Source: Acrocarpospora macrocephala | Lineage (GTDB): Bacteria; Actinomycetota; Actinomycetes; Streptosporangiales; Streptosporangiaceae | DNA: 64,000 bases | Direction: 5' to 3' | Assembly: GCF_009687865.1 (NCBI RefSeq) | Contig: NZ_BLAE01000010.1 | Coordinates: 103,992-167,991, forward strand | Shown: one piece after another, positions 5,751 through 28,145 of the stretch | Layout: each line of letters begins with the position of its first letter | Position numbering within the stretch: position 1 is the stretch's first letter | Position numbers and translations under genes: made by a program | Notes under the pieces: model-generated | Seen by the model: only the letters and a program-made list of their open reading frames with translations | Database searches by the model: none | What the model was told of the DNA's origin: nothing

Positions 5751-5811
5751 GATCATCGGAGTTGGCGGTCCACCGGTCGGATGCACGGGTTTGGTGGATC
5801 CTGTTCGGGTG

Positions 5812-8800
5812 ATGTCCATCCCCTGGCAAGATCTTCGTGCGGCAGACGTGGAGGATCTGATCGCCGCGCTTCTCCTGCGGACCGTGGACGGCGCTGTGCG
5901 GATCGACGGTTCCGGGGGAGACGGCGGCGTCGACGTCGCCGTGCAGAGGCCGACCGGCAAACACGTCTTCGAGATCAAGAGCTTCAGCCGGCGTCTTACC
6001 GCCGCGCAGAAGCGGCAGATACTGAAGTCGCTGCGCACCGCGGTCGAACGGCAGCCGGACATGGTGGCCTGGACGTTGGTGCTCCCGCTCGACCCCAGTC
6101 CGTCCGAGGACAGGTGGTGCAGGGAAGTACTCGCCGCAGAGACGACCGCGGCGGTGACCTGGATGGGCCGTACCGCGGTGGAGGTGGCATTCGCCGAACA
6201 TCGCGATCTTGCCGACATGTTCTTGCCCGGGTTGGCCGAACGCGCTGAGATGCGAACCGGTTCCGTCTCGGCGACCGATCGCAGTGTCGCCGTCGGGATC
6301 AACTATGGGACCGTCCAGCAGGTATTCCTCGGCGGTGGACACCGCCGGTTGCGCGACGTCACGATCGATCTCGACCCGCTCCCCGGGGACCTGGGCCTCC
6401 TCGACCCGGTGGATCCGAGCAACGTGCTGGGGGCGTTCACCGGCCGGCGCTGGCTGGTCGAGGCCGTGGACCGATTCGTCGGCGACTGCGTCACTCGCAG
6501 GGTGGGCGGCTACCTGCTGATCGAGGCCGAGGCGGGCATGGGCAAGTCGGCGCTGGCCACCTATCTGGCGTTCGACCGGGATCGGGCCTGGCCGGCGCAC
6601 ATCAGCCGACTGGGTACGGTCACGGCCGAGGCCGCACGTGCCAACCTGGCCGCCCAGCTGGTCGCGCGTTGGGGACTTGACGAATCGGCGGACGGGCTGC
6701 TGCCCGACGGTCACGACAGCACGGCATGGTTGTACGCACGGCTGGTGGAGGCCGCCCGGCGCCGGGACGAGGTGGATCCGGACACGGCCGTGGTCCTCCT
6801 GGTCGACGGTCTCGACGAAGCCCCCGCGACCAAGGTGGGGGAGATGCCGTTCGGCCTTCCGCCCCGGCTGCCCCCGGGAACCGTGATCGTGGCGACCAGC
6901 CGGCCGGGAACCCCCCTGCCGACGGCGGTACACGTTGAGCGGATCGAGGTGGAAAGCGAGCCCAACCTCGACGACCTGAGAGAGCACCTGCTCCGGCTCA
7001 CCGGCCGCGACCCACGGCTGAGCGGGCCGCTGGCGGCGGCCGGGGTTTCCCAGGACCAGTTCACGCACATGCTGCTGGAGCGGTCCGGCGGGGTATGGAT
7101 CTACGCGGTGTCGGTGCTCGACCAGGTCCGGCACACGGGTCGCGTGCCCTCCGCACTCGACGACCTCCCCAGCGGGCTCGCCGGCTACTACGCCGACGTC
7201 GTCGGCCGCTGGGCGGAGGATCCCGCGTTGGACTGGCACAATGCCGGCGAGCCGCTGCTGGCGACGCTGGCCGCCTGCCAGGAACCCCAGCCCGCCAGGG
7301 TGCTGGCCCGGTGGGCGGGCGTACCGGAGCCACACGCCCGCAGGATCGTCCGCGGAGCCTTCAAGGCGTTCCTGTCCTCCCGCCCTCACGTGGACGGCGA
7401 CCCGGACGTCTACGCGCTGGGACACAAGAGTCTCCTGGACTTCTGCGAAGGCAGGCTGCCGGCCGCCATCACCGGCGTCAGCGCCGTCCGGGAACACGCC
7501 CACGACCTGGCCCGCGCCACCCGCGACGCCCACCGCCGCATCGTCGAGATCCTCACCCCGCCCGGTGACGCGGCCGGGAGAGACTGGAGCACGGCCGACG
7601 ACTACGCGCGCCGATACCTCGCCGCCCACGCCGCTGCGGCCGGGCTGCTCGACGAGCTGTGTCAGGACCCGGGGTTCCTGCTGTTCGCCGACGTCCCCGA
7701 ACTGCTGCGCCGGCGACGGCAGCTGACCACCGACGCGGGCCGGGCCGCGGTCGCCGCGGCGGAACTCGCCGCCAACAGCTGGTCGGACGAGCCTACCGAC
7801 CAGTTGCGGTGGCTGGAGGTATCCGCCCGCAAGACCGGAGCTCACGACCTCGCCCGCCACGCCGCCGGGCGCCACGACGGCCCATGGCGCGTCCACGCCG
7901 CGATCTGGTCGGGCGCCAGTCACCAAGTCCTGTTCAGCCGCGACCACGCGATCTGGATGACAGCGGCGGTGCCCCTGCCCGACGGACAGGTGATGGTCGC
8001 CTCCGGCGACTCGGACGGGACGGTGCGGCTGTGGGATCCCGCGACCGGAACCTCCCCCGGCACCTGGCTCAAGGTGCACCGCAGCGGAGTCACGGCGCTG
8101 GCCACGGTGCCGACGCCGGACGGAGGAGCGCTCCTGGTCTCGGGCTGCGACGATGGGAGAATACGCCGCTTCGACCCGGTCGCCGGCATGTCCGTCGGGC
8201 CGGTACGCAAAGCCCATAAGGGGCGGGTCACCGCGCTCGTGCCAATACCGCTGTCCGACGGGCGGACCGCGCTGGCCTCAAGCGGCGATGACGGGAAACT
8301 ACGGGTGTGGAATCCCAAGACCGGCAGGCCGATAGGCGATCCGGTCACCGCCCACGGCGAGATCATGGCCATGACCACCGTGTCCCTGCCCGGTGGGCGG
8401 GTGCTGCTCGCCACCGCCGACAACGAGGGCACGATGGGACTGTGGGATCCTGCGACCCTCCAATCCTTAAGGACGTGGAAGTGCCACGACAGCGGCATTT
8501 GGGCGGTCGCGGCCGTACCGCTGTCCGACGGGCGGGTTCTTCTCGCCACGGGAAGCATGGAGATCGCACGGCTGTGGGATCCGACGACGGGCAGACCTGT
8601 CGGCGAACCGCTGACCGGCCACGTGGAGATGGTGCACGCCCTCGCGGCGTTGCCGATGCCCGACGGCCGGACGCTGCTCGCCTCCGGCGACGAGGACGGC
8701 AGCGTACGCCTGTGGGACGCGGCCACCCGCGCACTCGTGGCCGGACCGTTCGGTGAGCACAACGGTCCGGTGAACACCCTGGCGGAGCTGCCGATGCCGG

Positions 8801-11800
8801 ACGGCCGGACCCTTCTGGTCTCCGGCGCCTTCGACGGCACCGTACGGCTGTGGGACTTCACCGCCGAACTCACCGACGGCGAACGGTTGGCCGGTCATTA
8901 CGGCGGGGTCATCTCGCTGGCCACCGTCCCAACGCCGGATCGAGGTGTCGCGCTCGCGTCCCTCGACGGCGCCGGCGACGTGCGACTGTGGAACCCGGCC
9001 GACGGCACACCCATCGACGAACCGGTCACCGCGTACATCACCGACGTGCGGGCCCTCGCGTCGACGTCGTCCCCGGCCGGTCCCGTGCTGCTGGCGACCG
9101 GGGGCGGCGACGGGTCGGTCCAGCTGTGGGATCTCGACGCTGCCGGGCGGGCGGGCGGACCGCTCATCGGTCACACCATGGGGGCGAGCCTCCTGGCGGA
9201 GCTGCCGATGCCGGACGGGAGCGTCCTGCTCGCCTCGGCGACGAGGCAAGACTTCTACCTGCGGCTGTGGGACCTGGCGACCAGGACGCAGATCGGCAAA
9301 CCACTCCATGTCAGCAGCGTCTACTCGCTCGCGGCGATACGGCTGGGCGACGGGCGAACCCTGCTCGCCGTCGGCGGGCACAGCGAGATCCAACTTTGGG
9401 ATCCCATCACCCGGACTCGGGTCGGCCTGCTCGGCGGACATTCCACCGCTGTACTGGCGGTAGCGGCGGTACCGCTGGGCGGCGGACGGACGCTACTCGC
9501 CTCCGGAGGCAGCGATGGGACGCTCCGGCTGTGGAACCCGGACACAGGTTCGCCGATCGGTGACCCGCTCGGCCAACCCCACAGCCACGTGCAGGCGGTA
9601 ACGGCCGTGCCCACGCGGGACGGGCGGGTTCTTGTCGCGTCCGGGCACCTCGATGGGACGGTGCGACTGTGGGACCCGGTCACCGTCACGGCCATCGGCC
9701 CCCCTCTCGTCGGACACACCATGGGTGTGACGGCACTGGCCACGGTCCCGCAGGCCGGTGAAAGCCCGCTGCTCGCCTCCGCCGGCGACGACAACACGAT
9801 CATCCTGTGGGACCTCGCGGACGCCCCGGCGCCGGCGATCGCGGACCGCGCAGTTCCCTCCCGGCCCAGCACGAACCAGCAGCCCCCGGACGCCGGCGCC
9901 GCGGCCGGGCCGCTGGACGATTACCTCGCGGAGCACCTGCCGGACCTGCTCGCGATGCGAGGTCCGCTGCTGAAAGCCTTGGCGGGCGCGAGCACCCGCA
10001 CGACCCCGGGGCCGATGCCGTCGCCCTCCTACCCGGCGGACATCTCCGCGGCGATCACCTACCGGCTCCGGTTCGCGCTCACCGGAGCGAGCCGGGAGGA
10101 CGAGCCACCGGGATTCCGGTCCGCCATCCCCCGCCTGCTGGACCATTCCCAGCCGTACGACCACCAAGCGCCGATAATGATCGACGACCCGGAGCAGGAA
10201 GCCCGCCTGTACCGATTGGCATGGTGGCTCGGCCAAGCTCACCTCGCCCGCCTCCGCCGTCCGGCCCTGCTCGTGCCCGACCTCGACCAGTCCGGCCATG
10301 TTCCGGACCTCGCCGTGGCCGACCTGCGCGGACTGGTCCGTGCCGCCGCGAGCGGACCCTTCGCCCGCCTTCGCCAGTGGGCCGCGGGCGCGAACACCGT
10401 ACCGGGCCCACCCTTCGTCGGACCGTATGGGCTCGGCCACGACCTCAGCGCGGACGTGGTCGCCCGCACCACCGCCCTCGTCTTTCTCACCTCGGAGCAT
10501 CCGGCTGAACTGACCGCGCCCGAACATGCCACGGCGTGGCTGCGCCGGCTGGTCGGCTCCGTCCTCGCCGACCGGCGCGGCATCCGCCACGTGGCTGTCT
10601 ACCTCACCCGCCAGGCCATAGGGGTCAGCTGGCCCATCGATCGCCTCCTGACCGTATGCGCCGGATCCGCGCCCCCGCGATCCCTATCCGAGCACCGGCA
10701 CGAAGTCCGCGCGATTCTCGAAAAGGCCGGCCGCCAGGCCCTCATCTCAGGCCAAGGCCTGCGCGATCGTGTGCTTTCCGGCCTGGACTTGCGCCAAACC
10801 GACCTCACCGGCGCGACCCTGGCCGGAGCACACCTGCACGACGCCGACCTGTCCGGCGCCGACCTCTCCGGCACCGACCTGACCGGGGCACGCCTCGTCC
10901 GGCCGCGGCTCACCGGAGCACGCCTCACCGGCAGTCGTTGGCACCACGCGGCGATCCTCGCCCCCGCTCTCGACGAGACCACCCGGGCGGCCCCGGAACT
11001 CGCCGCCGCCGCCATCACGGGTCGTGACCGGGCCGAGCCGGTGCTGCTCCCACCCGAGGGGACCGTACAAGATATCGCCTGGTCACCCGACGGAACCCTG
11101 CTCGCCGTCGCGACCGGCGCACACGTGCTGATCTTGGCGGCGGCGGATCTCCGTGTGCGCCGAGTCCTGCTCGGCCACGCCCGCTGGGTGTCCACGGTGG
11201 TGTTCTCCCCGGACGGCCGCCTGCTCGCCACCAGTGACGAGGGAGACGAACTCGGAGGCGCCGACGCGCGGGTGCGGATCTGGGAACTGCCCTCCGGCCG
11301 GTTACACACCGAACTCACCGACACCATCGGCCCGGCGAGCACGCCGGCGTTCTCCCCGGACGGCCGCCTGCTAGCCACCAGCCATCAAAGCGAGGACTCA
11401 GCGGGAACAGTGCGGCTGTGGGATCTGGCGACCGGCCGTCAGTCCGGTGAGCTGACCGGCCACGCCGGATCGGTACGCGCGCTCGCGTTCCGCCCCGACG
11501 GCCAAATCCTGGCCACAGTCGGCTACGACGAGCCGGTGCGGCTGTGGGACGTCTCCACCGGCCGCAGGCTCGGCAAGCTCATCGGTCTCAGCGGTTCGGT
11601 GCACACGCTGGCGTTCTCCCCCGACGGCCGCCTGCTCGCCACCGGCGACGCCGACACCTACTTCGATGTCGAGGAGGAGGATTACTACGGGACGGAGGTC
11701 CGGGTACGGCTGTGGGACCTAGCCTCCCACCGCCAGTGCGGCGAATTCACCGGTCACCTCGGCCAGGTGAACGCGGTGGCCTTCTCGCCCGACCGGCGCC

Positions 11801-13173
11801 TGCTCGCCACTTGCGACGGCGTCCCGTGGTCGGCGAATCCAGGGCGGATACGGCTGTGGGACGTGCCTTCCGGCCGCCCGGTCGGTGAACTCCCGGGCGG
11901 CGCAGGAGAGGTGAACGCGCTGGCGTTCTCTCCCGACGGCCGCCTGCTCGCCACGGACGCGACGGACGGAAGAGTACGGCTGTGGGACGTGACCACCGGC
12001 TGCCGGCTCGGCGAATCCACTCGCCAACCCGAGCGGACGACCGCGGTGCACGCGGTGGCGTTCTCCCCTGACGGCCGTTTCCTCGCCACCAGTTCCGGCT
12101 CCACCAGCAACATGGGCGCGGCCGGCGGCCGGGTACGGCTGTGGGAGGTGACCACCGGCTGCCGGCGCCGCGAGTTCACCGGCCACAACGGCGCCGTGAG
12201 GGCGCTCTCGTTCTCCCCCGACGGCCGTTTCCTCGCCACCGGCGACGGCACCTACCGGGGACGGAGTCAGGTGCGGTTGTGGAACGCGGCCACCGGCGAC
12301 CGGCACGGCGTGATCGAGCAGCGCGGCCACGTGCGGGCGCTGGCGTTCTCCCCCGACGGCCGCCTGCTCGCGACCGGCGCCGGCGAAGACGGCCAAGGCG
12401 GACAGGCTCAGGTGTGGGAGGTTTCCTCCGGCCGCCGGCACGCCGGCGCCGTTGAACACATCGGCCCGGTGGCCGCGTTGGCCTTCTCCCCCGACGGCGG
12501 CCTGCTGGCGAGCGGCGACTGCGGCCACGGGAACTCTCGCGGCGAGGTCCACCTCTCGGACCCGGCCACCGGCCACCGGCGCGGCAAACTCACCGGCCGC
12601 CTCGGCCATGTAACCGCACTGGCGTTCTCCCCGGACGGCCGGCTACTCGCCACCGGAGCGATCGGCGCGGGAGTACAGCTGTGGACGGTGCCCTCCGGCG
12701 AAGAAGTCCGCGCCCTCGACGGCACCTGGTATCCGCACTCGCTGGCGTTCTCCCCCGACGGCCGGTTCCTCGCCACCGCCGATGCCACGCGAGGCCCGGC
12801 CGGTCGGGTACAGCTGTGGGAGGTCTCCTCCGGACGGCAATGCGGCGAACTCGTCGCGCACACCGGCTCGATCAACACCGTGGCGTACTCCCCCGATGGC
12901 CACCTCCTCGTCGGCGGTGACGAACACGGCATCGTACGGCTCTGGAACGCGGCCACCCACACGCTGATCGCGACCGTCGCCGAGTTCGAGGACGGCTGGG
13001 CGGTCCTGCTACCGGATGGACACTACAAGCTGAGCGGCGATCCCGGAGGACACCTGTGGTGGGTGATGAACCTCCACCGCTTCGAACCCTGCCAAACCGA
13101 CGGCCTCGACCCATCCGTCCGCCGCCTCGACCCGGAAGCACCACTCCCCGGCCTCGATCACCACCACCGGTAG
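5812..13173 (+). CDS. giant Mrr-like nuclease / NACHT-STAND NTPase / WD40 / pentapeptide protein
   Basis: About 2453 residues from the ATG at 5812; an in-frame TTG at 5791 and GTGs at 5794 and 5809 are alternatives. Residues 5-130 resemble an Mrr-type PD-(D/E)XK nuclease, with GGDGGVDV (D37, D41) and FEIK (E54, K56). A NACHT-like STAND NTPase follows: Walker A GMGKS at about 242-246, Walker B LLVDGLDEA at about 329-337, then VIVATSRPG. Next come 14 WD40 repeats (about 714-1339), an unassigned region (1364-1645), pentapeptide repeats (1646-1709), 14 more WD40 repeats (1748-2394) and a tail with GWAVLLPDG. The order effector, NTPase switch, repeat sensor is that of Avs and bacterial NACHT defence proteins, so a ligand-triggered nuclease is the best inference. 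All visible nuclease and P-loop residues are intact. Confidence 0.85.
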   Translation: MSIPWQDLRAADVEDLIAALLLRTVDGAVRIDGSGGDGGVDVAVQRPTGKHVFEIKSFSRRLTAAQKRQILKSLRTAVERQPDMVAWTLVLPLDPSPSEDRWCREVLAAETTAAVTWMGRTAVEVAFAEHRDLADMFLPGLAERAEMRTGSVSATDRSVAVGINYGTVQQVFLGGGHRRLRDVTIDLDPLPGDLGLLDPVDPSNVLGAFTGRRWLVEAVDRFVGDCVTRRVGGYLLIEAEAGMGKSALATYLAFDRDRAWPAHISRLGTVTAEAARANLAAQLVARWGLDESADGLLPDGHDSTAWLYARLVEAARRRDEVDPDTAVVLLVDGLDEAPATKVGEMPFGLPPRLPPGTVIVATSRPGTPLPTAVHVERIEVESEPNLDDLREHLLRLTGRDPRLSGPLAAAGVSQDQFTHMLLERSGGVWIYAVSVLDQVRHTGRVPSALDDLPSGLAGYYADVVGRWAEDPALDWHNAGEPLLATLAACQEPQPARVLARWAGVPEPHARRIVRGAFKAFLSSRPHVDGDPDVYALGHKSLLDFCEGRLPAAITGVSAVREHAHDLARATRDAHRRIVEILTPPGDAAGRDWSTADDYARRYLAAHAAAAGLLDELCQDPGFLLFADVPELLRRRRQLTTDAGRAAVAAAELAANSWSDEPTDQLRWLEVSARKTGAHDLARHAAGRHDGPWRVHAAIWSGASHQVLFSRDHAIWMTAAVPLPDGQVMVASGDSDGTVRLWDPATGTSPGTWLKVHRSGVTALATVPTPDGGALLVSGCDDGRIRRFDPVAGMSVGPVRKAHKGRVTALVPIPLSDGRTALASSGDDGKLRVWNPKTGRPIGDPVTAHGEIMAMTTVSLPGGRVLLATADNEGTMGLWDPATLQSLRTWKCHDSGIWAVAAVPLSDGRVLLATGSMEIARLWDPTTGRPVGEPLTGHVEMVHALAALPMPDGRTLLASGDEDGSVRLWDAATRALVAGPFGEHNGPVNTLAELPMPDGRTLLVSGAFDGTVRLWDFTAELTDGERLAGHYGGVISLATVPTPDRGVALASLDGAGDVRLWNPADGTPIDEPVTAYITDVRALASTSSPAGPVLLATGGGDGSVQLWDLDAAGRAGGPLIGHTMGASLLAELPMPDGSVLLASATRQDFYLRLWDLATRTQIGKPLHVSSVYSLAAIRLGDGRTLLAVGGHSEIQLWDPITRTRVGLLGGHSTAVLAVAAVPLGGGRTLLASGGSDGTLRLWNPDTGSPIGDPLGQPHSHVQAVTAVPTRDGRVLVASGHLDGTVRLWDPVTVTAIGPPLVGHTMGVTALATVPQAGESPLLASAGDDNTIILWDLADAPAPAIADRAVPSRPSTNQQPPDAGAAAGPLDDYLAEHLPDLLAMRGPLLKALAGASTRTTPGPMPSPSYPADISAAITYRLRFALTGASREDEPPGFRSAIPRLLDHSQPYDHQAPIMIDDPEQEARLYRLAWWLGQAHLARLRRPALLVPDLDQSGHVPDLAVADLRGLVRAAASGPFARLRQWAAGANTVPGPPFVGPYGLGHDLSADVVARTTALVFLTSEHPAELTAPEHATAWLRRLVGSVLADRRGIRHVAVYLTRQAIGVSWPIDRLLTVCAGSAPPRSLSEHRHEVRAILEKAGRQALISGQGLRDRVLSGLDLRQTDLTGATLAGAHLHDADLSGADLSGTDLTGARLVRPRLTGARLTGSRWHHAAILAPALDETTRAAPELAAAAITGRDRAEPVLLPPEGTVQDIAWSPDGTLLAVATGAHVLILAAADLRVRRVLLGHARWVSTVVFSPDGRLLATSDEGDELGGADARVRIWELPSGRLHTELTDTIGPASTPAFSPDGRLLATSHQSEDSAGTVRLWDLATGRQSGELTGHAGSVRALAFRPDGQILATVGYDEPVRLWDVSTGRRLGKLIGLSGSVHTLAFSPDGRLLATGDADTYFDVEEEDYYGTEVRVRLWDLASHRQCGEFTGHLGQVNAVAFSPDRRLLATCDGVPWSANPGRIRLWDVPSGRPVGELPGGAGEVNALAFSPDGRLLATDATDGRVRLWDVTTGCRLGESTRQPERTTAVHAVAFSPDGRFLATSSGSTSNMGAAGGRVRLWEVTTGCRRREFTGHNGAVRALSFSPDGRFLATGDGTYRGRSQVRLWNAATGDRHGVIEQRGHVRALAFSPDGRLLATGAGEDGQGGQAQVWEVSSGRRHAGAVEHIGPVAALAFSPDGGLLASGDCGHGNSRGEVHLSDPATGHRRGKLTGRLGHVTALAFSPDGRLLATGAIGAGVQLWTVPSGEEVRALDGTWYPHSLAFSPDGRFLATADATRGPAGRVQLWEVSSGRQCGELVAHTGSINTVAYSPDGHLLVGGDEHGIVRLWNAATHTLIATVAEFEDGWAVLLPDGHYKLSGDPGGHLWWVMNLHRFEPCQTDGLDPSVRRLDPEAPLPGLDHHHR
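7951..9828 (+). repeat. WD40 block A, 14 repeats
   Basis: Fourteen consecutive units of about 45 codons share the pattern PDGRxLLASGxxDGTVRLWDPxTG. Counting the terminal WD/WN dipeptides from DGTVRLWDPATG to NTIILWDLADA gives 14, i.e. two seven-bladed propellers. The repeat DNA is visibly related between units (for example the recurring gtgcggctgtgggat). Confidence 0.9.
10747..10938 (+). repeat. pentapeptide-repeat segment
   Basis: About ten A(D/N)LXX-type pentapeptides (LSGLDLRQTDLTGATLAGAH, DADLSGADLSGTDLTGARL) form a short right-handed quadrilateral beta-helix between the middle domain and WD40 block B. Confidence 0.85.
11053..12993 (+). repeat. WD40 block B, 14 repeats
   Basis: Fourteen units with the consensus FSPDGRLLATGD...VRLWDVxTG, distinct from block A (which has PLPDGR rather than AFSPDGR). 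Several units have loop insertions, e.g. the acidic YFDVEEEDYYGTE. Fourteen again equals two seven-bladed propellers. Confidence 0.9.
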
Positions 13174-17663: not shown

Positions 17664-19493
17664 TCAGTGAAGCGCCGCAGGCTCCTGGAAGCCAGCGGCC
17701 TGGCGGGTGAACAGGCGGGCGTACTCGCCGCCCAATGCCATCAGCTGGTCGTGGGTGCCCTCCTCGGCGACCTTGCCCTTGGCGAGCACGATGATGTGAT
17801 CAGCTTGGCGTACGGTGTTGAGCCGGTGGGAGATCAGCAGGCTGGTACGGCCGGCGCGGCCGGCGCGCAGTTGCTCGGCGATCGCGTATTCGGCGTCAGG
17901 ATCCAGGCCGGAGCTCGGCTCGTCCAGGATGAGCAGGTCCGCCGATTCGGCGCGGAGCAGGGCCCGGGCGATGGCCACCCGCTGCCACTGCCCGCCGGAC
18001 AAGAGCACGCCCTGACCGGCCTCGTCTCCCGGTCCCGCGGCGAAGAAACGGGACAGGACGGTCTCGTATCCGAGCGGCAGTCCGGCGAGCGCCTCGTGGA
18101 CGCCCGCCTGGCTCGCCGCGACCTGGATCCGCCCGAAAGACTCGGAAGAGTCCAGCGCGGTCAGGTCGCCGATGGCGATGTTCTCGGCGGCGGTCAGGTC
18201 GTACGCGACAAAGTCCTGGAAGACCGCGCCGATCCGGCGGCGGAGGCCGTCGACGGGCAGGTCGCGCACGTCGGCGCCGTCCCAGTGGATGCCGCCGCGG
18301 TCGGGGTCGTACAGCCGGCACAACAACTTGACGAGCGTGCTCTTGCCCGCGCCGTTGAGCCCTACCAGGGCGACGGCCTTCCCGTACGGAATGGTCAGGC
18401 TCAGGCCGCTGAGCACCCACGGAAGGCCGGAGCCGTAACGGAACCAGACGTCGCGCACCTCGATGCCGCGCCGCAGCGTGGCGACGACCCCCGCGGGGGC
18501 CGGTTCCGGCAGGTCAGCCTGCGCGCGTACGACATGCTCGTAGTGGTGCACGAGGGTGAGCGCCTGCTGGAGCTGGCCGAGTTGGACCGTCATCGACGAC
18601 AGGCAGGACAGTACGCCCGCCACGGCGGCGGTGAGGACCGCCAGGTCGCCGACGCCGGCCCGACCGGCCCCGATCTGCGCCACCATCGAGATCAGCGCGC
18701 CGCCCGCGACGACGGCGGCGAGCAGGGTGAGCGCGCCGTTCCGGCGGACCGCGACGGTGTCGACGCGGCGCTCGGCGCGCTGTCCGGCGTCGAGTTCGGC
18801 GAGCATCCGGCCGCGCAGGAAGCCGCTGATCCCGAACAGCCGGATTTCCTTGGCCGCCTGGAGGTCCAGCAGGAGCAGCTGGTAGAAGATCCTGCGGCGT
18901 TCGAGGGGCGCGATCTCCCACATCATCCGCGTACGCGCCCTGCTGAGCCGAAGCTGGACGATCACGTCGGGCACGGCGGCGGCGGCCACGACCAGCGTGA
19001 GCCACAGGCTGAAGGTGCTGACGGCCCCGGCGAACCCCACCAGGGTCACGGCACCGCTGAGCAGGCTGAGCAGCGCGTTCACCACGATCTGCGGGGTCGC
19101 CTGGCCGGACTGCTGAGCCAGCTGGAGGCGGTCGCGGAACTCGGGGTCCTCCAGCCGGGCGAGCCCCGTGATCCGGGACACGGCCGTGAACAGCTCGTCG
19201 CTGGTCCGGCGAACGATCCGGCGCTGCTGCTCAGCCTGGACAAAGCCGGTGAGGTGCGGCAGCAGGGCCAGCACGCCCCCGGCGACCGCGAGCAGCAGGG
19301 CCAGCACGAGCGGGCTCGGCCCGGACCCCATGGTGAGCCGGTCGATCAGCAGCTTGGTCAGCCAGGCGAGCGCGACGGGCGCCGCGCCGCCGATGATCGC
19401 CCCGGCGAGCTGGGCTGTGGCGAGGACCGGCCCAGCCTGCCAGACAAGCGATCCGACGGCGAGCAGCGCGGCCCCCGTCCCCGGTGACCTCAT
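17664..19493 (-). CDS. ABC exporter, fused permease and ATPase
   Basis: The ATG at 19493 overlaps the stop of the redoxin gene by 4 bp (ATGA) and gives 609 residues; the frame continues upstream but that part shadows the redoxin gene. Six membrane helices fill residues 1-320. The ATPase has Walker A GLNGAGKST at 378-386, signature LSGGQ at 498-502 and Walker B LLILDEP at 520-526. There is no N-terminal C39 peptidase, so it would export but not itself cleave a leader. Translationally coupled to the redoxin and next to the six-cysteine peptide gene, it is the likely exporter of that peptide. Confidence 0.9.
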   Translation of the reverse strand: MRSPGTGAALLAVGSLVWQAGPVLATAQLAGAIIGGAAPVALAWLTKLLIDRLTMGSGPSPLVLALLLAVAGGVLALLPHLTGFVQAEQQRRIVRRTSDELFTAVSRITGLARLEDPEFRDRLQLAQQSGQATPQIVVNALLSLLSGAVTLVGFAGAVSTFSLWLTLVVAAAAVPDVIVQLRLSRARTRMMWEIAPLERRRIFYQLLLLDLQAAKEIRLFGISGFLRGRMLAELDAGQRAERRVDTVAVRRNGALTLLAAVVAGGALISMVAQIGAGRAGVGDLAVLTAAVAGVLSCLSSMTVQLGQLQQALTLVHHYEHVVRAQADLPEPAPAGVVATLRRGIEVRDVWFRYGSGLPWVLSGLSLTIPYGKAVALVGLNGAGKSTLVKLLCRLYDPDRGGIHWDGADVRDLPVDGLRRRIGAVFQDFVAYDLTAAENIAIGDLTALDSSESFGRIQVAASQAGVHEALAGLPLGYETVLSRFFAAGPGDEAGQGVLLSGGQWQRVAIARALLRAESADLLILDEPSSGLDPDAEYAIAEQLRAGRAGRTSLLISHRLNTVRQADHIIVLAKGKVAEEGTHDQLMALGGEYARLFTRQAAGFQEPAALH

Positions 19494-20014
19494 GCCCGCG
19501 CGAGGCGCCGCAGCGGGTCGAGTTCGTGGCCGGAGGCCAGGACCGCGCCGTCCGGCCCGACCAGGAAGAACAACGGATAGGCGGCGACCGCGAAGGCCGT
19601 GGCCACGGGGCCGCCCTCCGCTTCGACGACCACCTTGCCGACCGCGTCCAGCGCCTGCCGCAGGTCGTCCGCGGCCGTACGCCCCGCCGAGACGACGGCG
19701 AGCGCCGGGGTGGACGCGGCGGTGTCGGCGAAGTCGGGGGCCTTCGGCAGGCACGACCCGCAGTCGGTGGAGAAGAACCCCACCAAGGTGACGCCGTCGC
19801 GCAGGATCTCCTCGTCGACCGTCTCGCCCGTGGTCGTGGCGGCGGTGAACGAGGGGACCTTCGCCCCGTCGGCCAGACCCGGCTGCCAGCCGTCGGTGTG
19901 CCCGGCCCTCTCCCGCTCATATTCGCGCAGTTTCCTGATGATCCCGCCGGTCAGCACCAGGTTGACGGCGACGAGCCCGCACAGGACGAGCACGGCGGAC
20001 AGACCGATGGTCAT
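19490..20014 (-). CDS. membrane-anchored TlpA-like thiol oxidoreductase
   Basis: The ATG at 20014 is preceded by GGAAGGGGAA; an upstream in-frame start exists but has no site. The 174-residue protein has one N-terminal membrane helix (about 4-25), a linker, and a thioredoxin fold with CGSC at 85-88 (FFSTDCGSCLP) and the cis-proline region AAYPLFFLV. The topology places the active site outside the membrane, as in TlpA/MauD/ResA proteins. It sits between the peptide gene and the exporter, so forming or isomerising disulfides in the six-cysteine peptide is a natural role, though inferred. Confidence 0.85.
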   Translation of the reverse strand: MTIGLSAVLVLCGLVAVNLVLTGGIIRKLREYERERAGHTDGWQPGLADGAKVPSFTAATTTGETVDEEILRDGVTLVGFFSTDCGSCLPKAPDFADTAASTPALAVVSAGRTAADDLRQALDAVGKVVVEAEGGPVATAFAVAAYPLFFLVGPDGAVLASGHELDPLRRLARA

Positions 20015-20085
20015 GAGCGTTTCCCCTTCCGATCGTGGTGGTGGCTCCGGAGCCGCCATGGGTCCGGAGCCGTGGGTTCATACCG

Positions 20086-20292
20086 TCAGCACCGGCCGAG
20101 GTAGGTCCAGCTGCCGCACGTCGCCCGGGCGTAGGCCAGGCAGATGTTGCCCGTGGGGTTGGGGTAGCACTGCTTGTAGTGGTTACAGCCGCCGCTGGGG
20201 GAAGACTCGTAGCACAGGTCCGCCTGGGCCTCGGTCTTCGGCAGGAACGCGCTGAGGAGCCTGTCCCCCATTCGCGCGATTGTCCGGGTCAT
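20086..20292 (-). CDS. six-cysteine secreted peptide precursor, 68 aa
   Basis: The ATG at 20292 follows AAAGGAG by 6 bases, a strong ribosome site. The first 25 residues (MTRTIARMGDRLLSAF...TEAQA) look like a helical leader without a full hydrophobic core and end in AQA, an AXA-type cleavage signal before D26. The presumed 43-residue mature part has six cysteines at 27, 36, 42, 51, 59 and 68, is rich in Tyr/Gly/Asn and has no acidic cluster, fitting three disulfides. The redoxin and exporter follow on the same strand and a signal peptidase is divergent. I cannot assign it to a named family; a bacteriocin, signalling peptide or RiPP precursor are all possible. Confidence 0.75.
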   Translation of the reverse strand: MTRTIARMGDRLLSAFLPKTEAQADLCYESSPSGGCNHYKQCYPNPTGNICLAYARATCGSWTYLGRC

Positions 20293-20427
20293 GCATCGCT
20301 CCTTTCGGATGGTGACCGGCCCTGTCGGGCCGCCCCACACGATGGACGGCGCCGGCTGCGCGGCGGTGACGGGTGACGCGCGAGCCCGCGTAACCGGCGC
20401 GACACCGGGCGCGGCGACACTGGGCCG

Positions 20428-20859
20428 ATGGGATACCTGATCGCCGGCGTGCTGGTCGCCGCGGTGCTCGTGGCGCGGCGGCTCCTGGTCGTCGTCCAGG
20501 TCGCGGGGACGAGCATGACGCCCGCGTACCATCCGGGCGACCGCGTCCTCGTCCGGCGGGGCGGCGCGGGCAGGCTGCGGCGTGGCCAGGTGGTGGTGTT
20601 CCAGTCCGCCCACATGTGGGGGCTGGCGCCGCCCCGGCTCGGCGCCACCGACTGGTTCATCAAGCGGGTCGCCGCGATCCCTGGTGAGACCGTGCCGGAC
20701 TCGGTCGCGGCGCGGGTCGACGCGCCGCCGGGGAGCCTGGTCCCCGCCCGGCGGCTCGTCGTCCTCGGCGACAACCCGGCCAGCCGTGACTCCCGTGCGT
20801 GGGGGTATGTGCCGTACGACCGGGTGCTCGGCGTCGTGATCCACCGGATGCCGTCATAG
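20428..20859 (+). CDS. S26 family signal peptidase
   Basis: This short type I signal peptidase (143 aa) has one N-terminal membrane helix, the nucleophile in GTSMTP (S29), the general-base lysine in FIKRVAAIPGE (K79) and the box LGDNPASRDSRAWGYVP. It lacks the large insertions of housekeeping LepB, as do locus-dedicated S26 enzymes. It is divergent from the peptide gene with 135 bases between the starts, and its end overlaps the SARP stop by 6 bp. The AQA site in the peptide leader is the obvious candidate substrate. Confidence 0.85.
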   Translation: MGYLIAGVLVAAVLVARRLLVVVQVAGTSMTPAYHPGDRVLVRRGGAGRLRRGQVVVFQSAHMWGLAPPRLGATDWFIKRVAAIPGETVPDSVAARVDAPPGSLVPARRLVVLGDNPASRDSRAWGYVPYDRVLGVVIHRMPS

Positions 20860-23064
20860 CTCGGCGGTCAGCCGGGCCGTACGCAACGTGGCCAGGTTGC
20901 GCGCCATGATCTCTTCGCCCCACAGGTTGTCCGCGTGCCGGCAGGCGCGCAGGGCGCGCTCATGGGTGTCCGCCCAGTCCTCGTGCAGCCCTCGCGCGGC
21001 GTAGTAGTTGACCGAGCGGGCCGCGAGCTCCCAGGCCAGCTCGTGCTGCCCGGACGCGGCGGCCTGCGCGACGCACGCCCTGATGGCGGCGCGTTCGACG
21101 TCGAACCAGTCGAGGGCGTCCAGGACGAGGCCCCTGGCCCGCGCCGGCGTCATGTACCAGCGGGCGGCCACGCCGCCGATGTCCCAGGTGAGGCGTTCGG
21201 GGAGGGAACGGTCCGCGGCCTCGGCGAGCGCGAGCCAGCCGCCGATCGCCCGCCGCACCGCCCCCGCCCGCGGTTCGGGCGGTTCTTCGGCGGCGGCGCG
21301 TTCGCGGGCGTGCAGCCGTACGAGATCGGACAGGCGATAGCGCGGCCGGCCGCACGCGTCGGCGCCGGTGCAGTCCAGCAGGTGGACGTCGAGCAGCTCC
21401 TCGGTCAGCGCCTCCGCCTCCTCCAGAGAGACGTCGAGCAGCGCGGCCGGGACCCAGGACGCGAAGTCGGGGACGTCGAGCAGGCCGAGCAGCCGGTACG
21501 CCCGCCGGGTCGGCTCGCCGAGCGCGGCGTAGCTCGACCTGAGGCGGTCCCGTACGGACAGGTCCCCCGCGGTGAGCTCGTCGAGGCGGGACGGCTCCGC
21601 CCGCAGCCGGGACGCGAGACGGGTCAGGCTCAGATGCTCGTCCCCGGCCACCCGGGCGCCCGCGATCCGCAGCGCCAGGGGAAGCCGGTCGCAGAGCCGG
21701 ACGATCTCGGCGGCCGCCCATTCGTCCGCGCCAGGCTCGCCCGCCACCCTCGCGAACAGCTCCCGCGCCGCCGCCGGGTCGAGCACGGACAGCCGCATCG
21801 TCGGCCGGGCGCTCAGCGCGGCCAGCCTGCGGCGGCTCGTGACCAGCACCGCGCAGTGCGGGCCGCTCGGGATCAACGGCCGGACCTGCGCCTCGCTCGC
21901 GGCGTCGTCCAGGATCACGAGCACCCGCCGGGCCGCGGTCAGCGCCCGATATGCCTCCTGCCGCTCCTCCTGCGTGGCCGGGAGCGTACGGCAGTCCGCC
22001 CCCAGCGGCACGAGGAAGCGGCCGAGCACACGGCCAGGGGCGACCGGCCGGTCGCCGGACCCACCCAGTTCGGCATAGAGCTGGCCATCGGGGAACTGCT
22101 CGCGCAGCCGATGGGCCACGTGGACGGCCAGCGCGGTCTTGCCGGTCCCCGCCCCGCCGACCACCACCGCCATGGCTGCGCCGGCGGCCAGCGCGCGGCG
22201 CAGCGCCTCGGCCTGCTCCTGCCGCCCGGCGAAGTCGGCAAGATCGGGCGGCAGGAAATGGGGTGAAACCGGGTCCGCCCCGAAGGTGTGCCGGACGGCC
22301 GGAAGCGTCTCGCCCGGCAGCGTCACCGCGCCGTCGTCAAGGACGGCTTCGTGCACGCTCGTGAGTAGCCGGCCGGGCGCCACCCCGAGCTCCTCGCGCA
22401 GCGCCGTACTCGTGCGGTGATAGATCTCCAGCGCCTCGGCCCGCCGCCCGGTGTGGCACAGGGCGAGCATGAGAAAGGCGCAGAGCCGCTCACGGTACGG
22501 GTGGAGCGCGGCCAGCGGGGCGAGTTCGGCCGACACCTCGTCATGCCGGCCGAGGGCGAGCGTGACGGCGGCGCAGTCCTCGTGGACGCGCAGGTGCTCC
22601 TCCTCCAGCCGCCGGGCCTCGGCGGCGACCAGAAGCGGCTCCTCGATGTCGTCGAACGCGGGGCCGCGCCAGAGGGCGAGCCCCTGGCGGAAGAGCACGC
22701 GGGCCGCCTCCAGGGAGCCCCGTTCGACGGCGGCGCGCGCGTCCGCGGTCAGCTCGGCGAAGCGCAGCGCGTCCAGCTCGCCGGGCGCGACGACCACGGC
22801 GTAGCCGCCCGGGCCGTACGCGATGCGCCCCTGTTCGCCGATCAGCTGCCGGAGGCGCCGCACGTACACCTGGACGGTCTTGTGCGAGCCCCGAGGCGGC
22901 GCGTCGCCCCACAACGCCTCGATCAGCGTGGGCACCGCGACGGCACGGCCCGGCCGGCACAGCAGGACGGCCAGCAGCCGGCGCACCATCGCGGCGCCGA
23001 TCACGACGTGCGCTTCCCCGTGGCGCACCTGCACTGTGCCAAGAACGCCGAAGTCCGTGGTCAT
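20854..23064 (-). CDS. AfsR/SARP-type regulator with NB-ARC domain
   Basis: A 736-residue activator. It has an OmpR-type winged helix and bacterial transcriptional activation domain (about 1-250; GSHKTVQVYVRRLRQLIG is the recognition region), then an NB-ARC ATPase with P-loop GGAGTGKTALAV and Walker B RRVLVILDDA, then a helical C-terminus. It lacks the long TPR domain of AfsR. SARPs activate secondary-metabolite and peptide clusters by binding direct repeats. It converges on the signal peptidase and is divergent from the XRE regulator, so it likely controls the peptide locus. Confidence 0.88.
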   Translation of the reverse strand: MTTDFGVLGTVQVRHGEAHVVIGAAMVRRLLAVLLCRPGRAVAVPTLIEALWGDAPPRGSHKTVQVYVRRLRQLIGEQGRIAYGPGGYAVVVAPGELDALRFAELTADARAAVERGSLEAARVLFRQGLALWRGPAFDDIEEPLLVAAEARRLEEEHLRVHEDCAAVTLALGRHDEVSAELAPLAALHPYRERLCAFLMLALCHTGRRAEALEIYHRTSTALREELGVAPGRLLTSVHEAVLDDGAVTLPGETLPAVRHTFGADPVSPHFLPPDLADFAGRQEQAEALRRALAAGAAMAVVVGGAGTGKTALAVHVAHRLREQFPDGQLYAELGGSGDRPVAPGRVLGRFLVPLGADCRTLPATQEERQEAYRALTAARRVLVILDDAASEAQVRPLIPSGPHCAVLVTSRRRLAALSARPTMRLSVLDPAAARELFARVAGEPGADEWAAAEIVRLCDRLPLALRIAGARVAGDEHLSLTRLASRLRAEPSRLDELTAGDLSVRDRLRSSYAALGEPTRRAYRLLGLLDVPDFASWVPAALLDVSLEEAEALTEELLDVHLLDCTGADACGRPRYRLSDLVRLHARERAAAEEPPEPRAGAVRRAIGGWLALAEAADRSLPERLTWDIGGVAARWYMTPARARGLVLDALDWFDVERAAIRACVAQAAASGQHELAWELAARSVNYYAARGLHEDWADTHERALRACRHADNLWGEEIMARNLATLRTARLTAEL

Positions 23065-23100: not shown

Positions 23101-23152
23101 GCAGTTGACCGGCAGTTGATTCGTGCCTGACGGGGCGGGCCGATGTCATAAT
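23101..23152 (+). promoter_or_regulatory. 11-bp-period direct repeats between two regulators
   Basis: GCAGTTG occurs at 23101-23107 and 23112-23118, and a looser copy GTGCCTG at 23123-23129, all spaced 11 bp, the period recognised by SARP proteins. A CATAAT -10-like hexamer follows at 23147-23152. The interval separates the divergent SARP and XRE genes. The spacing to the -10 is longer than in classic SARP promoters, so assignment is tentative. Confidence 0.45.
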
Positions 23153-23179
23153 GCGGCTTCGCGCCCCGAATCCAGCAGG

Positions 23180-25951
23180 ATGACCAGGATGACCGCTGCG
23201 CTAGTGATCACGCACCGGCGTCGGCTCGGCCTGACCCAGGAAGAACTCGCGGACAGGTCCGGCCTGAGCGTACGGGCGATACGCGACATCGAGTCCGGCC
23301 GCGTGGGCAGCCCGCGGCCGACCACGCTCCGCCTGCTCGCGGACGCCTTCGGGCTCGCGGACGACGACCGCGACCGCTTCGTCGGTTCCGCGCGCGTGCC
23401 CGCTCCCGCGCCGTCACGCGAGCCCGCAGGTGAGCGCCCGTGGCCGCGGGTGGCGCAGCTGCCGCCGCCGGCAGGCGTCTTCGTGGGCCGGGCCGAGCAG
23501 CTCGCCCGGCTGGACGCCCTACGGCCCGCGGGGCGGCGCCTTCCGGCACCCGTCACCGCCACGGTCGTGGGCGCCGCCGGGGTGGGCAAGACGGCCCTCG
23601 CCGTGCACTGGGCGCACCGGGCCGCCGCGCACTTCCCCGACGGGCAGCTCTACGCCAACTTGCGCGGGCACTCCGCCGAATCGTCCATGGCACCCGGGTA
23701 CGCGCTCGCGGGCTTCCTCCGCTCGCTCGAGGTTCCGCCCGAGCAGATCCCGCGCGACCTGGACGAGCTGGCGGCGATGTACCGTTCATTGACTTCCGGG
23801 CGGCGCATTCTGGTCCTGCTGGACGACGCCGGGACGCCCGATCAGGTGCGCCCGCTCCTGCCCGCCAGCGGCATGGCGCTGATCACCAGCCGGGACGAGC
23901 TCCGCGGGCTGGTCGCGCTCAACGGCGCGCATCCGGTCGTGCTGGCTCCGCTCCCGGCGGCCGAGTCGCTCGTTCTGCTCGGCCGCGTCCTCGGGCGGGA
24001 CAGGGTCGAGGCCGACCCGGGCGCCGCCGGTGAGCTGGCCGGGCTCTGCGCCCACCTCCCGCTGGCGCTGCGCATCGCCGCCGCCGACCTGACCACCCAT
24101 CCCGAGCTCACCATCCGTACGGCCGTGACCCGCCTGGCCGCGGACCGCCTGAACCACCTGGAGATCGCGGGAGACCCCTCGGCGGCGGTCCGCGTCAGCT
24201 TCGACCTCTCCCTCGACGCCCAGCCGCAGCCCGTCCAGCGGGTCTTCCGCCTGATGGGTACGGCCCCCGGCGGCGACATCTCGATTCCCGCCCTCGCGGC
24301 GCTGGCCGGGATCTCGACCGGCGAGGCGGCCGAAGCGGCCACGCTGCTGGCGGGCGCGCATCTCGTCGACCGCTCTCCCACCGGCCGCTCCGCCATGCAC
24401 GACCTGCTGCGCGCGTACGCCGTGGAGCGCGCGGCACGCGAGGACGGCGCGGCCGGCACGCGGGCGGCCCTGACCCGGCTCTACGACCACCTCCTCGGCC
24501 TGGCCGACGCCGCCGCCGACCTGCTCTACCCCGAGGTGCTCCGGCTGCCGCGACCGGCCTCGGGCTCCCGCCACGAGCACGAGTTCGAGGACAGCTTCGA
24601 GGACAGCTTCGAGGACAGCAAGGCCGCCGCCGACTGGCTGGAGGCCGAACGGGAGAACCTCGTCGCCGCCGTCATCCGGGCCGCGGCGGACGGCCCCCCG
24701 CATGTCGCCTGGACCCTCGCCGCCGCGCTGCGCGGCTACTTCTCCATGCGGATGCTCGCCGTCGACTGGTCGGCCTGCGCCGAGGCCGCGCTGGCCGCGG
24801 CCCGCGCGGCCGGCGAGTGCCGGCCCGCCGCCGTGCTCGAACTCGGCCTGGCCTGGCTGCACGTACGGCACAGCCGGGAGAAGGAGGCGATCGACCACTA
24901 CACGAAAGCGCTGGAGTACGCCGAAGAGGCCGGGTGGGTGGACTGCCAGGCCGCCACCCTGGGCGCGCTCGCTTCCGTGCACTTCTACTCCGGGCGGCTG
25001 GACCAGGCCGCCGACGGCTACGCGCGGTCGTTTCGGGCCAACGAGGAGGCCGGCAACGTCGGCGGCCAGGCCGTACAGTCGAGCAACCTCGGCCAGGTCT
25101 GCTACGAGCTGGGCCGGACCGCCGAGGCGGCCCACCACCTCGCCCGCGCGCTGGAGCTCTATCGGCGGATCGGCTCCCGATCCGGCGAGTCGCACACGCT
25201 CTCGGACCTGGGCGCGGTGTACTGCGTCGCGGGCGACTTCCGCCTGGCCGAGAGCCACCTCGACCAGGCGTGCGCCCTGGAGCGGGAGGTCGGCGACCGG
25301 CTCGGTGAGTCGGAATCGCTCCATCGGCTCGCCGCGGTCCACTGCGACACCGGCCGGCTGCCTCGCGCGCACGAGCTCGCGCAGGAGGCCATCGCCGTCG
25401 CCCAGGAGATCGGCCACCTACGCCTCCAGGTCCGGGCCAGGACCGTCCTCGGGACCGTACATTTCCACCTGGGTGACCACCAGCAGGCGTTCTACACCGA
25501 CCACGAGACGTTGCGGATCGCCCGCGACGCCGGAGAGCGCGTCCCCGAGATCACCGCGTTGATCGGCCTCGCCCGGGCAGGCCACCGGCTGGGCGACGAG
25601 CAGTCCCTGGACTACGCCACCGCGGCCCTCGCGCTGGCGCGCGGCACCGGCCACCGCGTCCTCGCGGCCCAGGCGATGACCGCCGCCTCCGAGATTCACC
25701 TCACGCGGGGCGAGACCGCGCTGGCCCTCAGCCGGGCATCGGACGCCATCGCCCTCCACGAGCAGACCGGCCACCGCCCCGGCGCCGCCCGGAGCCTGAT
25801 CGCGCTGGGCAACGCCCTGCGGCACGAGAACGGCACCGGCAAGGCCCGCCCGGTCTGGGACGCCGCCCGTGCGCGACTGGCCCAACTCGGAATGTCCGAC
25901 GAAGAGTTCCGCGACCTGGTCGACCCGCTGTACTGGAGCCAGCACGCGTGA
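23180..25951 (+). CDS. XRE / NB-ARC / TPR regulator
   Basis: The ATG at 23180 or 23189 begins an XRE helix-turn-helix (LGLTQEELADRSGLSVRAIR). Next come an NB-ARC NTPase (P-loop GAAGVGKTALAV, Walker B RILVLLDDAG, SRDELRGLVAL) and a C-terminal array of TPRs (about residue 560 to the end; e.g. AIDHYTKALEYAEEAGWVDC). This is a STAND transcription regulator of roughly 923 residues, typical of actinomycete secondary-metabolite loci. It is divergent from the SARP over 115 bases. A tandem FEDS repeat sits between NTPase and TPR parts. Ligand and targets unknown. Confidence 0.88.
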   Translation: MTRMTAALVITHRRRLGLTQEELADRSGLSVRAIRDIESGRVGSPRPTTLRLLADAFGLADDDRDRFVGSARVPAPAPSREPAGERPWPRVAQLPPPAGVFVGRAEQLARLDALRPAGRRLPAPVTATVVGAAGVGKTALAVHWAHRAAAHFPDGQLYANLRGHSAESSMAPGYALAGFLRSLEVPPEQIPRDLDELAAMYRSLTSGRRILVLLDDAGTPDQVRPLLPASGMALITSRDELRGLVALNGAHPVVLAPLPAAESLVLLGRVLGRDRVEADPGAAGELAGLCAHLPLALRIAAADLTTHPELTIRTAVTRLAADRLNHLEIAGDPSAAVRVSFDLSLDAQPQPVQRVFRLMGTAPGGDISIPALAALAGISTGEAAEAATLLAGAHLVDRSPTGRSAMHDLLRAYAVERAAREDGAAGTRAALTRLYDHLLGLADAAADLLYPEVLRLPRPASGSRHEHEFEDSFEDSFEDSKAAADWLEAERENLVAAVIRAAADGPPHVAWTLAAALRGYFSMRMLAVDWSACAEAALAAARAAGECRPAAVLELGLAWLHVRHSREKEAIDHYTKALEYAEEAGWVDCQAATLGALASVHFYSGRLDQAADGYARSFRANEEAGNVGGQAVQSSNLGQVCYELGRTAEAAHHLARALELYRRIGSRSGESHTLSDLGAVYCVAGDFRLAESHLDQACALEREVGDRLGESESLHRLAAVHCDTGRLPRAHELAQEAIAVAQEIGHLRLQVRARTVLGTVHFHLGDHQQAFYTDHETLRIARDAGERVPEITALIGLARAGHRLGDEQSLDYATAALALARGTGHRVLAAQAMTAASEIHLTRGETALALSRASDAIALHEQTGHRPGAARSLIALGNALRHENGTGKARPVWDAARARLAQLGMSDEEFRDLVDPLYWSQHA
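24584..24619 (+). repeat. 12-bp tandem repeat, three copies
   Basis: ttcgaggacagc is repeated three times exactly, encoding FEDSFEDSFEDS in the linker before the TPR domain. Copy-number change would keep the frame and only alter linker length. Confidence 0.9.

Positions 25952-26327: not shown

Positions 26328-28145
<1,818 letters not shown>

Follow-up and report, generated by a model that had tools for sequence, protein, structure and literature searches.

What does the compact gene cluster around a small six-cysteine peptide of the soil actinobacterium Acrocarpospora macrocephala make, and by what route would its product leave the cell? The cluster lies in a stretch of 64,000 nucleotides (contig NZ_BLAE01000010.1, positions 103,992 to 167,991; hereafter the window), in which a first-pass annotation, made from the sequence alone, had picked out a 68-aa peptide with an AQA cleavage site and six cysteines and had assigned oxidation, export, leader removal and control to the genes beside it. 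Our reading, at a probability of roughly 0.78, is that the locus makes and secretes a disulfide-bonded peptide, with export by an ATP-binding cassette (ABC) transporter, trimming by an S26 peptidase and oxidation by a TlpA-like protein (with MauE), each step being predicted from sequence. The peptide was borne out at 20086-20292 on the minus strand, and the division of labour is backed by co-occurrence of the genes in 90 loci versus 20 controls. The mature part, given as 43 residues, in fact has 44, because the leader is 24 aa long and ends in EAQA. The locus belongs to a large, apparently unnamed peptide family, a membership that is well supported. Its main parts are these (positions in the window):

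20086..20292, minus strand: gene of the precursor peptide (68 aa, six core Cys), with its own start and stop
20221..20292, minus strand: 24-aa amphipathic leader that has no Sec-type hydrophobic core and ends in EAQA
20089..20220, minus strand: core, 44 aa, D25-C68, framework C-C-C-C-C-C
19490..20014, minus strand: TlpA/MauD-like thioredoxin-fold protein with a CGSC motif
17664..19493, minus strand: ABC exporter half-transporter, 609 aa, with an ABC_tran domain
20428..20859, plus strand: compact S26 peptidase, 143 aa, Ser29/Lys79 dyad, Peptidase_S26 match 7.7e-22
20854..23064, minus strand: SARP regulator with BTAD and NB-ARC domains, its gene pointing towards the S26 gene

An AAAGGAG ribosome site stands 6 nt 5′ of the peptide ATG. 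The exporter and TlpA genes overlap by 4 bases and both lie 3′ of the peptide gene on the same strand; the S26 gene is divergent from it, with 135 bases between. The cysteines of the peptide are at residues 27, 36, 42, 51, 59 and 68, and with three disulfides the core has a computed monoisotopic mass of 4816.01.

The partner proteins were largely as first annotated. The TlpA-like CGSC oxidoreductase scores 185 bits on the family profile, falls slightly below the Pfam cut-offs for Redoxin and AhpC-TSA, and is probably anchored in the membrane by its N-terminal hydrophobic stretch. The exporter had been described as lacking a leader peptidase, and the Pfam scan found its ABC_tran domain and no match to a C39 peptidase domain. 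The divergent S26 enzyme is closest to bacterial signal peptidase I, to which its Pfam, NCBIfam and PDB matches all lead. As for the two regulators, the SARP gene stood, whereas the XRE-NB-ARC gene lies outside the range then given for the locus and is not a general part of it.

Gene context in 90 loci

Do the same genes keep company elsewhere? The 90 loci are the 10 closest and 80 hand-picked stretches of about 15 kb, mostly from the stronger matches of the family search, with a few from the peptide search. This choice skipped many lower or same-genome matches, and partner genes played no part in it. As controls, one stretch was taken from each of 20 of these genomes, 0.1-1 Mb away. With a leader profile, 114 peptides were found in the 90 loci and 0 in the controls; leader matches in 90/90 are there by construction, because all loci were chosen for a leader match.

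The four gene profiles, for which the case loci themselves supplied the training sequences (up to 80, or 60 for ABC), find the exporter at >300 bits in 83 of the 90 loci, the locus-type S26 enzyme at >100 bits in 82, TlpA in 75 and MauE in 59, each versus 0/20 controls, and all four together in 55. The partners lie on the strand of the peptide in 71/75 cases for TlpA, 53/59 for MauE, 78/83 for ABC and 54/82 for S26. Gene calling based on third-position G+C (GC3), followed by clustering, gave a SARP-type cluster in 51/90 loci and 0/20 controls, the representative having BTAD and NB-ARC domains. The recurrent genes are thus ABC, S26, SARP, TlpA, MauE and the peptides; every other cluster is found in at most 6 loci, and a LuxR-type gene in 5.

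The catalytic residues are well kept. Ser29 and Lys79 are invariant in all 82 rows of the S26 alignment, a dyad that fits type I signal peptidase-like S26 peptidases; in TlpA, C85 is present in 76/76 and C88 in 75/76 rows, and the CxC of MauE in 57/59. On the locus S26 profile, the pair of tandem housekeeping signal peptidases in the host reaches 34-55 bits, versus >100 for the locus type, and the idea that the locus enzyme is a general signal peptidase was rejected on that ground.

No modifying enzyme recurs in the 90 loci by gene clustering. Lanthipeptide, YcaO and radical-SAM families, which the first-pass annotation had not seen nearby, are absent from the 33 window open reading frames (ORFs) scanned (48 genes were called, and part of the scan was at E<=1e-8 only). 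A lanthipeptide, YcaO or radical-SAM product was rejected because neither these ORFs nor any recurrent cluster supplies such an enzyme.

Cysteines, cleavage site and leader

Are the cysteines paired? Counted after residue 18, they come in an even number in 111 of the 112 distinct peptides (4 in 25, 6 in 57, 8 in 24, 10 in 5 and 5 in one) and in all 57 dissimilar cores. The odd peptide, L055, owes its number to a C-terminal extension, and L099 has one further Cys within the leader, left uncounted. In the same DNA, an even number is found in 308/467 (66%) of the other small ORFs that have 4 Cys or more, and against that background 57/57 would arise by chance at about 5e-11. Pairing of the cysteines is the simplest reason for this parity. 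Together with the lack of a recurrent modifying enzyme, it backs the earlier suggestion that disulfides may be the only modification.

Cysteine spacings vary between cores. The commonest framework among the 57 dissimilar cores is C-C-CC-C-C (20/57), followed by C-C-C-C-C-C (15/57), which is that of the window peptide. Knottins and many conotoxins have the former spacing; a knottin, or inhibitor cystine knot, combines it with a I-IV, II-V, III-VI knot. Our assignment of a knottin-type framework to 20 cores, the window peptide not among them, is by spacing, not connectivity. A PDB search with three peptide profiles gave nothing convincing, the best E values being 0.24 (fd gene 3 protein), 0.28 (trefoil factor 3) and 8.3.

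The motif [AG]x[AG] precedes the first core Cys in 112/112 peptides (Ala at -3 in 108 and at -1 in 108), a count partly built in, because the leader profile was refined on leaders of this kind. A 17-row alignment that predates the refinement shows an AxA-type site too. AxA is the specificity expected of type I signal peptidases. By composition the leader is amphipathic and not a Sec signal: its longest run free of D, E, K, R, H, N and Q is <=7 residues in 105/112 peptides and 9-11 in the other 7, and its hydrophobic moment is 0.63 versus 0.31 for shuffled leaders, with 89/112 below p 0.05.

Two familiar kinds of secreted peptide were rejected on these features. A Sec-secreted peptide lacks support in that, by composition, no leader has a hydrophobic signal core (no run beyond 11). 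A class II bacteriocin with a C39 peptidase and double-glycine leader does not agree with the AxA-type site of all 112 peptides or with a window exporter that has no C39 match.

The peptide gene

Is the peptide a gene in its own right, or a spurious ORF or piece of another gene? The latter has one point in its favour, namely that an open frame of 252 codons, which passes antisense through the S26 gene, ends with the peptide. That frame is not kept in relatives (85 codons in Acrocarpospora catenulata, 106-127 in several Microbispora), so the peptide is not a fragment of a larger gene. It has its own start, ribosome site and stop, and is conserved up to the stop codon in A. catenulata and Microbispora at 46-85% identity. 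Among six Microbispora copies dN (nonsynonymous divergence) is below dS (synonymous divergence) in 15/15 pairs (e.g. 0.013 vs 0.198). The two outcomes named beforehand as fatal to the claim, a peptide not conserved in homologous loci and an N-terminal fragment of a larger gene, both fail, and we count the spurious-ORF explanation as already refuted, with a negligible chance of being right.

Proposed mechanism and alternatives

How would the parts work together? The precursor would be translated with its 24-aa amphipathic leader, of non-Sec type to judge from composition. The ABC exporter would recognise the leader and carry the precursor across the membrane, where a compact membrane S26 peptidase would cut after A-x-A, as the constancy of the site and the invariant Ser/Lys pair suggest. 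The TlpA protein would pair the six cysteines, with MauE as the likely electron partner, and the SARP regulator may switch the locus on. The least certain step is the role of the product; antagonism of competitors, in the manner of a bacteriocin, is the likeliest, at about even odds.

MauE is the part that the window locus does not have. A second complete locus in the same genome (L161, G000:C3:112500-128500, at about 5780-9646) has, in order, a diverged six-Cys peptide with a diverged leader, TlpA, S26, MauE and ABC. At the A. catenulata locus L047, the gap of about 140 bases between the peptide and TlpA genes (L047:10208-10346) contains a stretch that matches MauE residues 35-47 and, in another frame, a match to the MauE end; the evidence is weak (E 0.005 in a 250-base search). 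These possible remnants suggest that mauE was lost in this lineage. For the window locus MauE may be supplied in trans from the second locus, or may have been replaced.

Several observations weigh against this reading. The loci were hand-picked from stronger matches and the gene profiles trained on those loci, and leaders with an AxA-like motif served to refine the leader profile. At a looser cut (E<1e-6) ABC is found in 86 loci and 5 controls, and S26 in 83 and 1 (of the housekeeping type). The locus-type S26 enzyme is missing from 8/90 loci (including L040 of A. catenulata), TlpA from 15, the exporter from 7 and MauE from 31 (it is absent at the window locus); some of these gaps are at contig ends, where several stretches stop (L068, L078, L093, L102, L125, L127 and others). 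The membrane domain of the window exporter gives a match under the Pfam cut-off only, and AlphaFold gives no usable model of the precursor (pLDDT, the per-residue confidence, 47; pTM, the overall confidence, 0.20). The 90 loci share no recurrent immunity gene, an awkward point for a bacteriocin role. Lastly, among the six Microbispora copies leader dN exceeds core dN in 12/15 pairs, so at that short distance the core shows no fast change.

Over longer distances the picture differs. The window and L040 copies have a leader dN of 0 and dS of 0.12, with 0.139 and 0.149 for the core, and when A. catenulata L047 is set against Microbispora the core is faster than the leader in 6/6 cases. Between close copies purifying selection acts on the core, which diverges as the distance grows; no arms race is shown, and the genes are short.

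The same maturation could instead deliver a secreted signal to the producer or its kin, with the SARP and NB-ARC regulators as part of the response. The SARP-type regulator in 51/90 loci and the lack of a recurrent immunity gene would both suit a signal, but the cores are highly variable between loci, one locus can hold several different peptides (7 in L087), and no conserved receptor gene recurs in the 90 loci; we hold this to be unlikely, though it is the strongest of the rivals. The cysteines might also bind metal and be kept reduced by TlpA, the product being a metallophore or resembling a metallothionein. Many cysteines in a short chain would agree with that, and TlpA-like proteins can, as is generally known, act as reductases. 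What makes a metal-binding product improbable is the even parity in 111/112 peptides, spacings that are not constant across cores, the absence of any recurrent metal gene in the 90 loci and the presence of MauE in 58 of the 75 TlpA loci, MauE being linked to the disulfides of methylamine dehydrogenase in the part of PMC7794033 available to us.

A third possibility is a full ribosomally synthesized and post-translationally modified peptide (RiPP), in which an enzyme encoded elsewhere converts the cysteines to thioethers or to links of another sort. A leader followed by a core is a RiPP-like layout, and similar clusters were listed as candidate RiPPs by decRiPPter, according to the accessible portion of PMC7794033. 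Since no modifying enzyme recurs in the 90 loci and none is among the 33 scanned window ORFs, we judge this no likelier than the metal-binding product.

The host family as a whole holds a large set of peptides that share a leader type and differ greatly in their cores, which have 4-10 Cys; one locus (L087, G208:C28:341581-358569) carries seven different leader peptides. A wider scheme, which we offer tentatively and rate well below the maturation route itself, would liken the set to conotoxins: a shared leader and one machine for export, trimming and oxidation would serve a diversified library of multi-disulfide peptides, many of knottin type, used as weapons. If true, these peptides would form a separate bacterial class of disulfide peptides, in which a bacterial-type signal peptidase is the leader protease for ABC-exported precursors.

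Distribution of the family

How far does the family extend? With the window peptide as query, 12 full-length matches (itself included) were found in 11 of the 341 genomes of the host family (host included), and besides A. catenulata the other close loci are from Microbispora. Relatives were found in the expected company, as a peptide search with genome context had been proposed to reveal: among the 10 closest loci TlpA, ABC and a SARP-like gene are nearby in 10/10 and S26 in 8/10 (not L040 or L049), A. catenulata lacking S26 at L040 and having it at L047. More distant matches have the leader alone in common. The 17-row alignment has M1, D10, R11, P18, A22 and A24 invariant, while core length and Cys number vary.

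A profile built from this alignment finds members, at E<=1e-3, in 141 of the 341 host-family genomes (own included), spread over 28 of 68 genera; a single genome has as many as 9 matches. Across the phylum it matches 7 of 396 genomes: the own genome, G363, which is real by context, and 5 others that look unrelated, whose loci of about 3 kb contain none of the four partner genes. The G363 locus (L180), from another family of the same class, holds TlpA, an 8-Cys peptide with a more diverged leader (11.4 bits), MauE, TlpA, ABC and S26, with an oppositely oriented BTAD regulator. The S26 profile matches 13 of the 396 genomes, including the own genome and G363; the other 11 matches (71-83 bits) are taken as other S26 enzymes, because their loci of 2-3.5 kb have no TlpA, MauE, ABC or leader match. 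These searches scored at most 15-17 candidates per genome for the leader (phylum and family) and 10 for S26 (phylum), so absence in them is weak evidence. Peptide searches gave no match in plasmids, one weak match (E 0.067, for one of four peptides) in PHROGs, and nothing better than E 0.09 in a Pfam and NCBIfam scan of 17 members.

Neighbouring features

Two further features adjoin the locus:

23123..25951, plus strand: XRE-NB-ARC-TPR regulator, a neighbour in few related loci
20043..20071, minus strand: stem-loop between the peptide and TlpA genes, with identical stem sequences in A. catenulata L040

The first is probably accessory; among the 10 closest loci a separate XRE-NB-ARC gene is found at L040, and also at L046 and L048 (35-38% identity). 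The stem-loop follows directly after the peptide stop codon and could favour expression of the peptide over that of the enzyme; its stability is not clearly above that of shuffled sequences (z -1.1 and -1.8). The scan for promoters and terminators gave 0 and 0. Elsewhere in the window, 5791-13170 (plus strand) is an open frame of 2460 aa that holds very many WD40 repeats, and 26783-27217 (minus strand), to the right of the locus, is an IS4/5-type transposase fragment (DUF4096) in a stretch of lower G+C.

Comparison with known systems

Is this a described system? The peptide had been said to match no described class. That held in so far as the leader family is apparently uncharacterised: no description of it was recognised among the best-ranked literature matches (title and abstract start, with subscription journals mostly outside coverage). 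It did not hold entirely, since decRiPPter had noted candidate clusters with mauE and mauD. In the available part of that 2020 work (PMC7794033), mauE is found in three candidate RiPP families of Streptomyces, one of which has mauD as well; every family has a predicted precursor with 8 Cys or more, the genes are proposed to take part in modifying the precursor, and MauE is speculated to serve the disulfides of the methylamine dehydrogenase beta-subunit. The clusters were filtered for a transporter, a regulator and a peptidase, and only Streptomyces was mined, as far as the same part tells (PMC7794033). These families resemble ours in having MauE/MauD-type genes beside a Cys-rich precursor, and the available decRiPPter text mentions neither a shared leader nor an S26 peptidase nor an AxA site, the comparison being by description only (PMC7794033). 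Set against the decRiPPter criteria, MauE is in 59/90 of our loci and 8-10 Cys in 29/112 peptides, and the window locus has no MauE and 6 Cys.

A signal-peptidase-type enzyme for leader removal is also known from the LPP RiPPs, where in 2026 a SipW-like signal peptidase of Bacillota was described as removing the leader, something unprecedented in RiPP pathways according to the accessible text (PMC13381572). There the enzyme is an archaeal-type SpI, acts in a manner dependent on a RiPP recognition element (RRE) and is mostly from Bacillota, and the products are linear polyphosphorylated peptides; the word "disulfide" does not occur in that portion (PMC13381572). In the present loci the Pfam scan gave no RRE-type family among the locus proteins and there is no small recurrent partner, no search aimed at RREs having been made. 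In the part of a RiPP leader-protease review that was available (PMC10885120), the terms S26, signal peptidase and disulfide are absent.

TMcins share leader proteolysis, a dedicated thiol oxidoreductase and an ABC transporter with the present locus, and their disulfide is required for activity; they differ in a precursor that is a transmembrane helix, an S2P-clan protease, a DsbA-like enzyme and a single disulfide (PMC13252029, as available in part). A TMcin was rejected because the leader has no hydrophobic helix and no S2P-clan protease is among the locus proteins. Actifensins are likewise actinobacterial, with a 69-residue propeptide, a disulfide-bonded defensin-like core and ABC genes nearby, but have G-x-E before the mature part and a subtilisin-like protease and LuxR gene in the operon, and "thioredoxin" does not occur in the accessible text (PMC6989792). 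An actifensin was rejected because the leader ends in AxA, not G-x-E, and no such protease/LuxR set recurs.

Methylamine dehydrogenase maturation shares MauE and a TlpA/MauD-like protein with the present family. That system has an enzyme subunit as its substrate and is not known to involve an ABC exporter, an S26 peptidase or a leader family like the present one.

Leader-directed export of disulfide-rich peptides is of a known kind, and what is new here is the unifying leader, the compact S26 enzyme, the Cys parity and the breadth of the family. If our reading is true, a large actinobacterial set of secreted disulfide-rich peptides lacks a Pfam or NCBIfam model and can be found with one leader profile, and a natural leader-addressed route exists for exporting and oxidising diverse multi-disulfide peptides. 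It makes testable both the oxidation of small peptides by MauE and TlpA and the service of bacterial-type S26 peptidases in ABC export.

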